Assembly (NCBI GenBank): GCA_023144895.1
Contig: JAGLEV010000061.1
Location: 1-52,885, forward strand
DNA: 52,885 nucleotides
Source: Thiotrichaceae bacterium
GTDB lineage: Bacteria > Pseudomonadota > Gammaproteobacteria > Thiotrichales > Thiotrichaceae
Direction of reading: 5' to 3'
Shown: in pieces, positions 17,203 through 23,175 of the stretch
Layout of the letters: each line of letters begins with the position of its first letter
Numbering within the stretch: position 1 is the stretch's first letter
Notes under the pieces: model-generated
Told to the model about the DNA's origin: nothing
The model's database searches: none
What the model saw: the letters and a program-made list of their open reading frames with translations, nothing else
Program-made: the position numbers and the translations under genes

Positions 17203-17564
17203 ATTTCCTCCTAGTTAGTATGATTATTAAGTCAACATATCAAAGTATAGAGTACTTTATTATGGGATACTTTAATATATATTTATGGATAGAGTCTTTT
17301 TATTTTGTATTTCCTAGTGGATAGTGAAAATTTAGGCATACGATGAAGGAATATCAACAAAATCTTTAGAATTTTGAAGTTATTTTATTTTCAACGTTTA
17401 ACTCTTAAAGCAACTATAATCAATACCTTCACCCATTTTTATTTGAGCCAAAAGTCGCATTTTTCGACAGATAGATTCATGACTTAGTAGAATAAAATTC
17501 TCAAAAACGAGACGCTTTCATTTTGGTGAAGGTGCTGACAATATACGACATAGAAGGATCATTG
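17203..17564. other. gap holding a MITE-like element and the start of the rhodanese operon
   Basis: These 362 bases separate the divergent hemerythrin and rhodanese genes. The left part should hold both promoters, though I could not assign -35 and -10 boxes with confidence. The right part is filled by the inverted-repeat element at 17421-17537, which ends 27 bases before the chosen start of the rhodanese gene. Confidence 0.5.
17421..17537 (+). repeat. 117-bp inverted-repeat element (MITE-like), copy 2
   Basis: The ends carry ACCTTCACC (17425-17433) and GGTGAAGGT (17525-17533) as perfect inverted repeats. The element aligns with copy 1 read on the minus strand: CAATACCTTC at the left end, a TTGA(A)GCC(C)AAA block about 24 bases in, and CTTTCAT with AAGGT at the right end. 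Copy 2 is about 25 bases longer in the middle. It lies directly upstream of the rhodanese gene, so it may carry or disturb its promoter. Confidence 0.6.
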
Positions 17565-18737
17565 ATGTTAGATAAAAAATATTTGATTATCATTAGTTTA
17601 TTATTGAGCAATACCGCTCATGCTATCCCGCCTCCAGATGCCTTAATTTCAATTTGGCAGTCTGCACTACAGTTATTAGGGGTTATTTCTGTTTTCCTAG
17701 TCGGCTTCTATTACGCACTAAGGCAGTACCTCTCTGCTTGGAAAAAGCCTATCTTAGGATTTCTAGCAATTGCAATAATAGGCTCAGGTACTTACCTATT
17801 TTTAAATACACAAGCTACCGCTCCAAAAAGTACTGTTAACACCCGTATTAGTAACCCTGATATCCCCACATTAAAAGATGCTAACCCATCAGTAAAAAAT
17901 ACGCTGATTCAAGGAGAACAACTCTCTATTAAAGATATTATTGCTCATGATCCTAGCAAGGATAATCGAAAATGGAAGCTTCAAACCTATCAAGAAATGC
18001 AGAGAGAAATGAGTAGTCTTCGAGAAAAAAACAAACTCTCGAAGATAACCATGCACACCATGCCTTCCTTTAATGCTCAAGACTTAAATCGACATATCAC
18101 TGAGTCACCTGAAAAAATATTTTTACTGGATGTCCGTGCGGCTTATGAGCGTAAAAGATTTTCTATTAACCACCAAGCCACTATTCATTATGGTGACTTA
18201 GTGAATAGTATTTTGCCAAAAAAATTGGCTAAGCAGTTACCAAAAGACAAAACAATCATTGTGCTTTGTCACTCGGGTCTACGTGGTTATATTTCCTCTC
18301 ATTTATTACAAACATTAGGTTATAAAAATGTCGCTTTCTTACAAGGTGGATTACATGCTTGGAATCAACAAGAATTACCCATCAATGGGCAAGAAGATTA
18401 TTCATATGATACTTCTACTTATCCCATTTTTGGTGAGGAAGAAGTTTATAACAGGAAAGGTTTACTAAAAGTAGATATTGATGCTGATGATAATATTCTT
18501 CAAGACATTCCTGATTTGATTCACTTACCTTTTGAGATCGCTAGCAGTCAAGAGATTGATAAAATCATTCAACAGTCAAAAATCACTCCTCTACTGATTA
18601 TATGTAAAAGCTATAGTGGATGTTTTCATATCCCCAATTTTGGCTATTTAGTCGACCAAGCAGGTGGTAAAGTTGCAGGAGTATTTGATCTAACAGGAGA
18701 GTTTATTATCCCTCCTATTGTAGAGTCACTTGATTAA
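17565..18737 (+). CDS. membrane protein with two rhodanese-like domains
   Basis: I place the start at ATG 17565 because AAGGA lies six bases before it and the protein then begins with a clean signal segment (L-D-K-K-Y-L-I-I-I-S-L-L-L-S-N-T-A-H-A); the longer TTG frame at 17523 begins inside a repeat element. The 390-residue product has two further membrane segments (L-G-V-I-S-V-F-L-V-G-F-Y-Y and I-L-G-F-L-A-I-A-I-I-G), then a rhodanese domain (about 175-265) with the active cysteine C235 in V-L-C-H-S-G-L-R-G, and a second, diverged rhodanese-like domain (about 275-390) with C347 and C353. Rhodaneses carry sulfane sulfur on the cysteine. The next gene starts three bases after its stop, so the two form an operon. 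Partner and sulfur acceptor are unknown. Confidence 0.8.
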   Translation: MLDKKYLIIISLLLSNTAHAIPPPDALISIWQSALQLLGVISVFLVGFYYALRQYLSAWKKPILGFLAIAIIGSGTYLFLNTQATAPKSTVNTRISNPDIPTLKDANPSVKNTLIQGEQLSIKDIIAHDPSKDNRKWKLQTYQEMQREMSSLREKNKLSKITMHTMPSFNAQDLNRHITESPEKIFLLDVRAAYERKRFSINHQATIHYGDLVNSILPKKLAKQLPKDKTIIVLCHSGLRGYISSHLLQTLGYKNVAFLQGGLHAWNQQELPINGQEDYSYDTSTYPIFGEEEVYNRKGLLKVDIDADDNILQDIPDLIHLPFEIASSQEIDKIIQQSKITPLLIICKSYSGCFHIPNFGYLVDQAGGKVAGVFDLTGEFIIPPIVESLD

Positions 18738-18740
18738 TCA

Positions 18741-20420
18741 ATGACTAAACTCTCTAAAAAATATGCCTATTTATCCCAAGCAGAACAAGCAGGGATTATT
18801 ACGCCAAAAACACTATTACTACATGAGGCGAATGATGCTGAGGTTCAGCACTTTATTAAGACCTGTGATAGTGACAGCCGTTTTATTATACGGAGTATGC
18901 AAAGTGCAGAAGATACACACCACCAGTCTTATGCTGGGCATTTTTGGAGCTCTTCAGCAGTTCACCCTAATGAAGTCATTGCAACCATTTCTCTCGCTCA
19001 AAAAGAAAATCATCAGCGACTAAAACAACTCAATATCAATGAGCCACCACAGCTGATGTTGCAAGAGTATATTGAGCACAATATTGGTGGTGTTCTGTTT
19101 AGTCCATGGAGTTTTTTTGCTAATTATTGCTTTATTGAATACTCTACTCATAGCGTACAACAGGCTGTTGAAGGTAAAGCGACTCCCGCTGTTATCAGCA
19201 TTAAAGAAGGTTACCCATCGCCACTAGCACTGGATGAAAAATTAAGTTTTTTACTAGAATCATTGCGTTTATTAGTACAGAAATTACAGACTATCTTTAA
19301 TTTTCCTATTGATAGCGAGTGGGTTTATAGCGAGAAAAAAAAATCAATCCTATTATTACAAGTGCGCCCCCAAACACGCTTAGTCGGTGCCTTATTCAAT
19401 GCAACACCTGAACAATACCAGCAGTTAAAATTACCTGCTGGTGATTGGCAATATACGGCTTTATCAGAAAGTTTAGGCAAGCTTTCTCCACTATCTTTTA
19501 GTCTACTGGAACAGCTTTATGACAATTCAAGAGTCAGTTTACAATCATTAGGTTATCAAGCCAAACAGGTTGATTTTATCACTCGACTACCTGATGGCAG
19601 TATTTTAGTTGACCCCGTATTAGAAAAGCGTTTTTATGCTCCCACAACTTTTGGTGGATTTTGGAAGAGTTTTAAAGCACCACAGTGGCAACAAAAAATC
19701 AAAGATTTATTAGCAACTCTTAACCTTGATAAGAATTTTTCTTACACGCAATTATCACAATATTTTCAATACTGGATCATTGCGAATACACTAAGCAATG
19801 GTCAGGGCAGAGAGGAGAATAAACCTCATGCGTATGAATTATCTTGGCAACAAAAATTAGCCCCTCCCACTATTCATACTAATGATGATTCATGGGATAT
19901 ATTAAATCAACAGCTTAAACAGCTATTCTTTTTTGAACTGGAAAAGCTCAAGCAACAAATCACAGAGCCTCAGCAAGTCTTGTTATCTTGGCAAGATAGC
20001 TTACTCAATAAAACAGTTTCTATGATAGAGGAGCAACAGGCTACATCAATGGCGATATATGATTATAGTTTGTGGGGTATTGGATTAAGCAACACTGCAA
20101 TGCAGTCTATTGGTGCAAAAAAGAAAACATCAGGAAGGCTTTTTATTGTCCAAAATCCAAGCTATTTTCAAAAGGAAATCCCTGTTGAATCAATATTAAT
20201 AGCCCCCTACTTTGATAATCAGTGGGTACAAAGTATTCCTAAGCTCAATGGAATTATTGTGACACAAGGAGGGCATTTATCACATTCCGCTATTGTGGCG
20301 CGGGAGTCGGGTATTCCTTATTTTATTGGTCAATATGATAATACAGGTGAATTAAAGCAAGGTGACTGGGTGAGTTTGTCATTGTTAGGAGCTTTGTCTA
20401 TACCGAGTACAACAAGGTAA
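18741..20420 (+). CDS. ATP-grasp/PEP-utilizing phosphotransferase of the PEP synthase / rifampin phosphotransferase type
   Basis: Three parts are visible in 559 residues. Residues 1-215 form a PEP-synthase-type ATP-grasp domain: I-I-R-S-M-Q-S-A-E-D, S-Y-A-G-H-F, L-Q-E-Y-I-E-H-N-I-G-G-V-L-F-S and the closing D-S-E-W-V-Y...L-L-L-Q-V-R-P-Q-T. Residues about 216-470 are an unassigned helical region. Residues about 480-555 form the swivelling phospho-histidine domain with G510-G-H-L-S-H515-S-A-I-V-A-R-E and H515 as the likely carrier. The order ATP domain, middle domain, His domain matches rifampin phosphotransferases and differs from PEP synthase, which has a C-terminal PEP/pyruvate barrel that is missing here. 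The protein is much shorter than typical Rph (about 860). It should transfer a phosphate from ATP through His515 to an unknown substrate. It is co-transcribed with the membrane rhodanese. Confidence 0.75.
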   Translation: MTKLSKKYAYLSQAEQAGIITPKTLLLHEANDAEVQHFIKTCDSDSRFIIRSMQSAEDTHHQSYAGHFWSSSAVHPNEVIATISLAQKENHQRLKQLNINEPPQLMLQEYIEHNIGGVLFSPWSFFANYCFIEYSTHSVQQAVEGKATPAVISIKEGYPSPLALDEKLSFLLESLRLLVQKLQTIFNFPIDSEWVYSEKKKSILLLQVRPQTRLVGALFNATPEQYQQLKLPAGDWQYTALSESLGKLSPLSFSLLEQLYDNSRVSLQSLGYQAKQVDFITRLPDGSILVDPVLEKRFYAPTTFGGFWKSFKAPQWQQKIKDLLATLNLDKNFSYTQLSQYFQYWIIANTLSNGQGREENKPHAYELSWQQKLAPPTIHTNDDSWDILNQQLKQLFFFELEKLKQQITEPQQVLLSWQDSLLNKTVSMIEEQQATSMAIYDYSLWGIGLSNTAMQSIGAKKKTSGRLFIVQNPSYFQKEIPVESILIAPYFDNQWVQSIPKLNGIIVTQGGHLSHSAIVARESGIPYFIGQYDNTGELKQGDWVSLSLLGALSIPSTTR

Positions 20421-20731: not shown

Positions 20732-21931
20732 ATGATTCATTATTCAGACGAAAACGACCTAATCATAGACTATTCTAAAATCATTGGTTACCCCTGTTTA
20801 CTCACAGTCACATCATGGGAAAAAGGCATAACATGGAAAAGTGTTGCTGGTGAAGAAAGAGTTTTTCAAAAAAATTATCTAGACGAGACAGGAGTAGCAC
20901 TGCACCAAACTTACAATGGTAATAAACAGAACAAATGGTTAAACACTATTCCAAAAGACTTACTTAGTATGTTGCTGGATTATGAAAAAAATTACTTCTA
21001 CTCAGCCTATCCATTACTTTATTTATTAAGTCATCACCAAAATGCCATTGACTTATTTAAAAGCAGCCAGGTGCTGATGGCTATTCTTATGTATTCAGCA
21101 GAAAAAAACAACTGGAATGAAGAATATGTGGTTAATTTATTAAATGGAAAAAGAGTTGATATTATTGATGCCTGTGGATTACCTAGAAGAAAGTCAACAT
21201 TAAAAACACTTAATAAAATTGAGGGTATTTATCTTTCACCTTTAGAATATAATGCTATTAAAATAGTTTTATCACTTCCAAACGCTCACTTAATTAATCA
21301 CTTGAACTCTATTGATATAGGATTAATTTATTTAATAGCAAACCACAATGAATTTATAGCTTCTTCATTGATAAGTCGTTATCACAAAGAGTGGCTAGAT
21401 ATTGGGTTTAGATATATGTATATTGATACTAAAAGGATGCTTGGACGAGCAGGTAGCCGACACTTAAAAAAGTGTGCAACGCTTGATGAATTAAAAAAAA
21501 TACATAAAAAATGCATCATTAAACTAAATGAAGAGAATAAAAAGAAGAGAGAGAAAATAAAAAAGGAGATGCATGAGAGGCATGAGAGGAATAAAAAGAA
21601 TAATGAAATAAATAAAAAAAATAATGGAAAAGTCTATTTTTCTCAGCCCCCAGTTAAAGGAAATAAATATATAATCCCAATAACTAATAGTCATGATTTG
21701 ATGGATGAAGGGATAGATCAACGTCATTGTGTCGCTAGTTATCAGGATGAGATAGTTAACGGTAAAAGCTATATTTATAAAGTCTTAGAGCCAGAGAGAG
21801 CAACACTGCAAATTCTAATCTTAGGTAACAATAAATATAGAAGAGCTCAACTTAAATTGTCTTGTAATCAATCGCCATCAAAAGAAACAGTACAAATGGT
21901 TGAACAATGGATGAAAAAAGCATTCGAGTGA
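20732..21931 (+). CDS. PcfJ-like protein, paralog 1
   Basis: The 399-residue protein ends in a PcfJ-like domain: K-Y-I-I-P-I-T-N-S-H-D-L-M-D-E-G-I, then R-H-C-V-A-S-Y-Q-D-E-I-V-N-G near residue 330, Y-K-V-L-E-P-E-R-A-T-L-Q-I-L and A-Q-L-K-L-S-C-N-Q-S-P-S. The H-C and Y residues and the x-x-G-x-x-I-Y strand are hallmarks of the family (PF14284), first named from the conjugative plasmid pCF10 and of unknown function. The N-terminal ~250 residues are helical and not recognised. Compared with paralog 2 it has an extra K/E/N-rich stretch of about 33 residues just before the domain (encoded near 21520-21630), probably a charged helix. It is not next to transfer genes. Confidence 0.75.
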   Translation: MIHYSDENDLIIDYSKIIGYPCLLTVTSWEKGITWKSVAGEERVFQKNYLDETGVALHQTYNGNKQNKWLNTIPKDLLSMLLDYEKNYFYSAYPLLYLLSHHQNAIDLFKSSQVLMAILMYSAEKNNWNEEYVVNLLNGKRVDIIDACGLPRRKSTLKTLNKIEGIYLSPLEYNAIKIVLSLPNAHLINHLNSIDIGLIYLIANHNEFIASSLISRYHKEWLDIGFRYMYIDTKRMLGRAGSRHLKKCATLDELKKIHKKCIIKLNEENKKKREKIKKEMHERHERNKKNNEINKKNNGKVYFSQPPVKGNKYIIPITNSHDLMDEGIDQRHCVASYQDEIVNGKSYIYKVLEPERATLQILILGNNKYRRAQLKLSCNQSPSKETVQMVEQWMKKAFE

Positions 21932-22074: not shown

Positions 22075-23175
22075 ATGATTCATAATTCAGAAAAAAACGA
22101 CTTAATCATAGACTATTCTAAGGTCATTGGTTACCCCTGTTTACTCAAAATCACACCATGGGAAAAAGGCATAACATGGACAAGCATTGCTGGTCAAGAA
22201 AGAGTTATTCAAAAAAATTATCTAGACGAGACAGGATTAACACTGCACCAAACTTACAATGATAATAAAGAGAACAACTGGTTAAGAGCTATTCCAAAAG
22301 ACTTACTTGGTAAGTTGCTGGATTATGAAAAAAAGTACTTCTTCCCAGTTTATCCATTACTTTGTTTATTAAGTAACCATCAGAGTGCCATTGACTTATT
22401 TAAAAGGAATCATCTGCTGATGGCTATTCTTATGTATTCAGCAAAAGTAAATAACTGGAATGAAGAGTATGTGGTTAATTTATTAAATGGAAAAAGAATT
22501 GATCTTATTAATGCCTGCGGGTTACCTAGAAGAGAGTCGACATTAAAAACACTTGATAAAATTAGGGGTGTTTCTCTTACACCTTTAGAGTATCTTACTA
22601 TTAAAAATGTTTTATCACTTCCAAACGCTGACTTAATTAATAATTTTCGATATGTCGATATAAAGTTAATTTATTTAATAGAAGAGCATAACGATTTATT
22701 AACTAAATCATTAATGCAAAGCTATCACAAAGAATGGTCAGTATTTCAGTTTAAAAAAATATATTTCGATACTACAATAATGCTTGGGCGAGCAGCCAAT
22801 CCACAATTAATAAAGTGCTTAACTATTAGTGCATTAGAAAAAATACATGAAAGGTGGACTATTAAAAGAGATAAAAAAGTATATTTTCCTCAGCCCCCCA
22901 TTAAAGGAAGTAAATATATAATTCCAATAACTAATAGTCATGAATTGATAGATGAAGGGAGAGCTCAACATCATTGTGTCGCTGGTTACAAGGATGAGAT
23001 AGTTAATGGTAGAAGCTATATTTATAAAGTCTTAGAGCCAGAGAGAGGAACACTACAAGTTCTAATTTTGGCTAACAATAAATACGCAAGAGCTCAATTT
23101 AAATTGTCTTGCCATCAAAGCCCATCAAAAGAAACAATACGAATAATTGACCAATGGATTAACGGGAACGACTAG
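22075..23175 (+). CDS. PcfJ-like protein, paralog 2
   Basis: The 366-residue protein is closely similar to its upstream neighbour along its whole length, from the shared Y-S-K-V-I-G-Y-P-C-L-L start to the C-terminal domain with H-H-C-V-A-G-Y-K-D-E-I-V-N-G (near residue 298), Y-K-V-L-E-P-E-R-G-T-L-Q-V-L and K-L-S-C-H-Q-S-P-S. It lacks the charged insert of paralog 1. Both copies keep the invariant His-Cys pair and the tyrosine of the domain, so both look intact. The upstream region is duplicated too, so each copy can be transcribed on its own. It is followed by ppa with a gap of about 100 bases. Function is unknown. Confidence 0.75.
   Translation: MIHNSEKNDLIIDYSKVIGYPCLLKITPWEKGITWTSIAGQERVIQKNYLDETGLTLHQTYNDNKENNWLRAIPKDLLGKLLDYEKKYFFPVYPLLCLLSNHQSAIDLFKRNHLLMAILMYSAKVNNWNEEYVVNLLNGKRIDLINACGLPRRESTLKTLDKIRGVSLTPLEYLTIKNVLSLPNADLINNFRYVDIKLIYLIEEHNDLLTKSLMQSYHKEWSVFQFKKIYFDTTIMLGRAANPQLIKCLTISALEKIHERWTIKRDKKVYFPQPPIKGSKYIIPITNSHELIDEGRAQHHCVAGYKDEIVNGRSYIYKVLEPERGTLQVLILANNKYARAQFKLSCHQSPSKETIRIIDQWINGND

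Follow-up and report, generated by a model that had tools for sequence, protein, structure and literature searches.

A membrane-anchored tandem rhodanese and a compact dikinase encoded side by side in Thiotrichaceae as a candidate split member of a transmembrane dikinase family

The window, a stretch of 52,885 nucleotides from a Thiotrichaceae bacterium, encodes a membrane-anchored tandem rhodanese (gene 1) directly followed by a compact dikinase of the rifampin phosphotransferase (RPH) type (gene 2). The pair is best read as belonging to a small family of transmembrane dikinases, in a split form that lacks the YidC-like domain, with a probability of roughly 0.5 for its identity and the direction of its coupling taken jointly. 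The identity itself, namely one coupled transmembrane rhodanese-dikinase unit, is highly likely. The direction, in which the periplasmic module would gate the kinase, is proposed tentatively and at somewhat less than even odds. Because related marine bacteria encode both parts as one fused protein, the two gene products very probably work as one device. Sequence comparison establishes the anatomy, the homology, the catalytic residues, the gene coupling, and the fusion elsewhere. The pair is assigned to the RPH-type dikinase superfamily as a variant form and not as an RPH.

Rhodanese domains are common and their partners often unknown, and for the many RPH-type dikinases few substrates are known. 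Since the link between the two is confirmed by fusion in the cultured Phaeobacter inhibens DSM 17395, both questions can be tested in one bacterium. If the proposed reading is true, the pair would be a metabolic switch across the membrane of a kind not seen before.

Both reading frames were recovered with their translations as the first-pass annotation had described them, and its positions for C235 (in CHSGLRG), C347, and C353 of gene 1 and H515 of gene 2 agree with ours (Table 1). Three bases separate the stop codon of gene 1 from the ATG of gene 2. Because approximately 310–360 gene-free bases lie on either side of the pair, the unit consists of exactly two genes. Full-length orthologues with 37–73% identity exist for both genes, and the reading frames thus exceed chance. 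In consensus scans, promoter matches around the pair were about as frequent as expected by chance, and no terminator was found 3' of gene 2. Outside the pair, at 20732–21931 and 22075–23175, lie two paralogues in tandem whose C-terminal domains resemble PcfJ (Pfam E 9.8e-13 and 4.1e-10, respectively); they are related to phage families that have no known function.

Table 1. Features of the two-gene unit, in positions of the window
Feature	Position	Strand	Description	Basis
Probable ribosome-binding site of gene 1	17552..17558	+	AGAAGGA	Direct sequence reading
Gene 1 (P0001)	17565..18737	+	390-aa membrane-anchored tandem rhodanese; ATG 17565, stop 18737	ORF, translation, Pfam, orthologues in 9 other Thiotrichaceae
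Signal peptide	17565..17624	+	Ends A-H-A; mature start IPPPD	Invariant residues; cleavage inferred
Membrane helix 1	17643..17720	+	aa 27-52	Hydropathy
Membrane helix 2	17748..17804	+	aa 62-80	Hydropathy
Rhodanese domain 1	18075..18368	+	Active loop C235-H-S-G-L-R-G	Pfam, aa 171-268
Rhodanese domain 2	18462..18734	+	C347-X5-C353-F loop	Profile alignment with rhodanese 2 of the fused proteins
Gene 2 (P0002)	18741..20420	+	559-aa compact dikinase; ATG 18741, stop 20420	ORF, translation, Pfam, 10 orthologues
Short ATP-grasp domain	18741..19379	+	aa 1-213	hmmsearch alignment to 5fbs, conservation
Middle, putative acceptor-binding domain	19380..20183	+	aa 214-481	Conserved residues
Swivelling phosphohistidine domain	20184..20378	+	aa 482-546	Pfam PEP-utilizers

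The product of gene 1 opens with a segment in which A18, A20, I21, P22, and P24 are invariant between the Thiotrichaceae proteins and the fused homologues of roseobacters. Its two membrane helices are joined by a positively charged loop, RQYLSAWKKP. Because this loop precedes helix 2, hydropathy and charge suggest by the positive-inside rule that the rhodaneses face the periplasm. The first rhodanese is recognized by Pfam (E 1.8e-13, 51.2 bits versus a cut-off of 22.2), and D189, R191, C235, H236, G238, and R240 are invariant in Thiotrichaceae and roseobacters. The second has no Pfam match in the window protein; its kinship emerges when profiles are aligned with the fused homologues, where Pfam sees two rhodanese stretches, and C347, C353, and F354 are invariant across both groups. 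The anatomy proposed earlier, a membrane protein with a signal peptide and two rhodaneses, is thus retained, with domain 1 resting on Pfam and domain 2 on the profile alignment. C235, C347, and C353 are the only cysteines of the protein, and all three are invariant in ten Thiotrichaceae proteins and six aligned roseobacter fusions. A divergent fusion in genome G825 carries loops of the same type, CHNGNRSS and CYDRRGCF. The rhodaneses probably handle sulfane sulfur at C235 and a thiol pair at C347/C353. Described tandem rhodaneses and thiosulfate sulfurtransferases share the canonical cysteine loop of domain 1, whereas the C-X5-C loop of the second domain, the membrane anchor, and the conserved IPxP(D/E) mature N terminus set gene 1 apart from them.

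The product of gene 2 follows the order of the RPH-type superfamily: ATP-grasp, acceptor domain, C-terminal His domain. In the alignment to 5fbs, K7, R51, S70, and E193 correspond to K22, R117, T136, and E297 of RPH-Lm, which belong, together with H825, to the residues studied in that enzyme (PMC4844700). S70 is a conservative substitute for T136, the other three counterparts are kept, and H515 is the counterpart of H825; all ATP-site and His residues that were tested in gene 2 are in place. The catalytic H515 lies within GGHLSHSAIVARE, where GGHLSH matches the GG-x-x-x-H motif of the catalytic His, and is invariant in alignments across lineages. Pfam detects PEP-utilizers (E 3.1e-15, aa 483-546) and PPDK_N (E 1.8e-9, best stretch aa 172-224), and residues 214-480 have no credible match to any library model. 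The conserved features of this middle region are SESLGKLSPLSF (aa 242-253), Y365-E366, E399, and K402. Of these, E243 and Y365-E366 do not vary across the three lineages, nor do E399 and K402 within Thiotrichaceae. AlphaFold2 models were poor for both proteins (46.1 for gene 1 from a 3-sequence alignment; pLDDT 39.6 for gene 2 from a 4-sequence alignment). PADLOC returned no credible defence-system match, and there is hence no sign of a known defence system.

The domain order is that of RPH (PMC4844700), which could speak for a rifamycin-inactivating phosphotransferase, the more so as RPH-like relatives exist. This identity is, however, hardly credible: the RPH model NF041857 gives gene 2 30.6 bits against a cut-off of 999, and the middle domain is much shorter (~255-270 versus ~430 aa, in proteins of 559 and ~865 aa) and on its own shows no significant alignment to RPH (E 0.33). 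Gene 2 was thus rejected as a rifamycin-resistance enzyme; it also differs from RPH in being linked to a membrane rhodanese protein. The RPH layout assigned in the first-pass annotation holds for the order of domains, and the likeness beyond this order is only broad. The relation to RPH rests on full-length alignments and on intermediate ones that run via the fused kinases. In block 9 of RPH, the catalytic Arg-Glu...Lys block (R666, E667, K670), whose Arg has no clear counterpart here, the fused and third-lineage kinases show K-E-x-A-K. The Thiotrichaceae kinases show there, depending on the alignment, either R/K mostly without Glu or the invariant E399-x-x-K402 without Arg.

PEP synthase and PPDK also contain ATP-grasp and phosphohistidine domains but differ from gene 2 by the PEP/pyruvate barrel, by another domain order, and by forming a separate clade. 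The PEP synthase model TIGR01418 matches gene 2 only at model positions 364-447 of 784, with 37.9 bits against 739.75. The short form could easily be mistaken for a broken PEP synthase, and no ordinary PEP synthase or PPDK was found in the window's genome, listed as 100% complete, gene 2 being its only PPDK_N/PEP_synth match. Descent from an ordinary PEP synthase by loss of the barrel is nevertheless ruled out by domain order and conservation and has a negligible probability: the C-terminal His domain follows a conserved middle with no barrel behind it, 11 full-length orthologues keep that middle, the kinases branch apart from PEP synthases, and relatives with gene 2 usually also own a separate PEP synthase of ~800 aa. 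The earlier view that gene 2 is no such fragment is upheld by the missing barrel and these orthologues. Most family members carry the ~800-aa enzyme, unlike the window's genome.

Two-gene dikinase systems of the RPH type that act on small molecules are represented by the phenolic dikinases HpeHI, CreHI, and PpsAB (PMC12167813). They resemble the window pair in comprising two genes but encode the ATP-grasp domain in a separate gene, whereas gene 2 holds ATP-grasp, middle, and His domains in one chain and has a membrane rhodanese as its partner. Known superfamily members act on rifampin and phenols (PMC4844700, PMC12167813).

Among 63 Thiotrichaceae genomes, the kinase occurs in 11, full-length and with the middle domain conserved, and the rhodanese protein in 10. 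In 10 of the 11 kinase genomes, the rhodanese gene lies immediately upstream on the same strand, with gaps of -41 to +31 nt, and the other neighbours of the pair are shuffled from genome to genome. The homologues are thus not found mostly apart, which answers the question of adjacency raised by the first-pass annotation. The two genes co-occur across the 63 genomes with a Fisher p of 9e-11, a value that the relatedness of the genomes makes too optimistic, and the trees of the two genes are congruent (Mantel r 0.895, a value reached in 0 of 20000 permutations). A sample of 369 genomes of the class yielded no case beyond Thiotrichaceae, and viral contigs contained no relatives. The sole kinase genome without a rhodanese gene is G026, whose orthologue (L047:4259-5938) lies ~250 bases from a divergent gene and keeps all catalytic residues. 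This solitary kinase could be taken to mean that two unrelated genes share an operon by chance, which is very improbable given the conserved pairing amid shuffled neighbours and the congruent trees, and is contradicted by the fused homologues.

A fusion of this kind, first met in Leisingera by tblastn of gene 2 against plasmids, combines in one chain the N terminus, two rhodaneses, a 60KD_IMP/YidC-like domain, PPDK_N, and PEP-utilizers. The Leisingera frame extends upstream, giving the same AxA-IPSPE N terminus as the gene 1 type. In Phaeobacter, Leisingera, and Tritonibacter, the fused protein has ~1340 aa, the same rhodanese cysteines as gene 1, and a dikinase portion of the rifampin-phosphotransferase type; relatives are annotated only as "PEP/pyruvate-binding domain-containing protein," and no described function was found for the roseobacter fusion. 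At an identity of at least 60%, 78 plasmid records contain the locus, chiefly from Phaeobacter and Leisingera and including P. inhibens DSM 17395, and 4 of 149 sampled genomes of the roseobacter family carry the fusion, each as a single open frame of ~1350 codons. In profile alignments, the kinase half matches gene 2 end to end (E 8.2e-27, 539 columns) and the membrane half likewise matches gene 1 over its whole length, with all three cysteines aligned (E 4.8e-16, 320 columns); the fused kinases align to RPH-like enzymes with E 3.2e-63 over 688 columns. The protein of DSM 17395 (WP_014881854.1, ~1340 aa) is homologous end to end with gene 1 plus gene 2, but it is a single chain with a YidC-like domain in between and a longer dikinase, whereas the window pair is split. 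A YidC-like domain was recognized in neither of the two window proteins and is treated as a variable feature of the proposed family, whose other features both genes display: the IPxP(D/E) N terminus, the helices, the C-X5-C tandem rhodanese, and a linked dikinase. In the kinase tree, a clade with a support of 99 unites the window-type, fused, and third-lineage kinases and separates them from RPH-like enzymes and PEP synthases, although the topology may be distorted by the long branch that leads to the Thiotrichaceae kinases. The joint action of both genes supposed earlier is, with the conserved unit and the roseobacter fusion, more strongly supported than had been assumed. The pairing had been called undescribed, and no description of either pairing or fusion was found in the searchable open papers, a scope outside of which most subscription journals fall.

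A third lineage is formed by two genomes of another family (f207), in which a membrane-protein gene overlaps the kinase gene by 4 bases. The membrane protein has an ALPTPDALISV N terminus, a weakly YidC-like C terminus, and an N-terminal region that aligns to gene 1 (profile E 2.5e-7). The periplasmic part shows, in both genomes, neither a Pfam rhodanese match nor a rhodanese cysteine loop. Further lineages were not found in 398 genomes of the phylum. The membrane proteins (L077:2228-4129, L078:1280-3199) both keep one cysteine, in YLRCD-x-x-AHEA, past the second helix, and flagellar genes lie near the pair in both genomes.

For the mechanism, gene 1 would be the membrane protein with its rhodaneses facing the periplasm and gene 2 its cytoplasmic partner. 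ATP would bind at K7, R51, and E193, and H515 would take the β-phosphate, with AMP and Pi being released. The His domain would then swing to the middle domain and phosphorylate a hydroxyl group on a small molecule or lipid, probably a hydrophobic one. On the other side of the membrane, C235 would pick up sulfane sulfur as a persulfide and hand sulfur or oxidation state to C347/C353, the disulfide or polysulfide state of which would switch the kinase through the two helices. In the fused relatives, the signal would also pass the YidC-like helices. That a periplasmic sulfane-sulfur or redox state, read by the tandem rhodaneses, controls a cytoplasmic small-molecule or lipid kinase in this way is conceivable, at odds of about one in three. 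Under this reading, such a switch could have a YidC-like membrane core or do without one; kinase and membrane partner stay together in three proteobacterial lineages.

Gating of the kinase is preferred over direct sulfur delivery because of the predicted opposite membrane sides and the one lineage without the cysteines, and this with modest confidence; the sensing direction is a choice among options that the data do not separate. The third lineage, which has the N terminus and the kinase but no rhodanese, suits an exchangeable periplasmic input better than an obligate delivery of sulfur. Of the sulfur relay on the membrane suggested in the first-pass annotation, a literal version that feeds the kinase is therefore unlikely, the rhodaneses being predicted periplasmic and absent from that lineage. 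Alternatively, the chemistry could be sequential, with the kinase activating a compound by phosphorylation and the rhodaneses providing sulfur for this compound or its pathway, as happens when thio-cofactors are made. A common pathway is implied by fusion and operon, and neither active loop has lost its cysteines in gene 1 or the roseobacter fusions, but the predicted topology and the lineage without rhodanese cysteines leave this rather unlikely. Less probable again is that the membrane protein serves mainly as an anchor whose rhodanese folds bind a ligand or partner, with the kinase acting on a membrane lipid or quinol independently of sulfur. The same lineage would fit such an anchor, as would the YidC-like domain in two lineages and the hydrophobic hydroxyl compounds on which known kinase relatives act (PMC4844700, PMC12167813); the invariance of the only three cysteines of gene 1 over two bacterial classes argues instead for thiol use.

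Opposite the fusion, Phaeobacter, Tritonibacter, and their relatives encode a binding protein of the PhnD-like type (PF12974) as well as a hybrid histidine kinase (L073:8428-11660, L080:5933-9165, L084:3-2668, L085:2396-5512), neighbours that are conserved in Phaeobacter, Leisingera, Tritonibacter, and Parasedimentitalea. Both were rejected as parts of the system, as they are absent in G825 and not found beside the Thiotrichaceae pairs, and are treated as clade-specific. In TtrS, tetrathionate is likely bound by a sensor domain of the PhnD-like type, which also served to identify ThsS as a thiosulfate sensor (PMC5408782); the neighbour may hint at a sulfur-oxyanion signal. On a Thioclava plasmid (L074:3026-11233), an RPH-like dikinase is grouped with genes for an FAD oxidoreductase and an aminotransferase in what looks like a biosynthetic cluster, and an acyl-homoserine-lactone synthase is encoded nearby.
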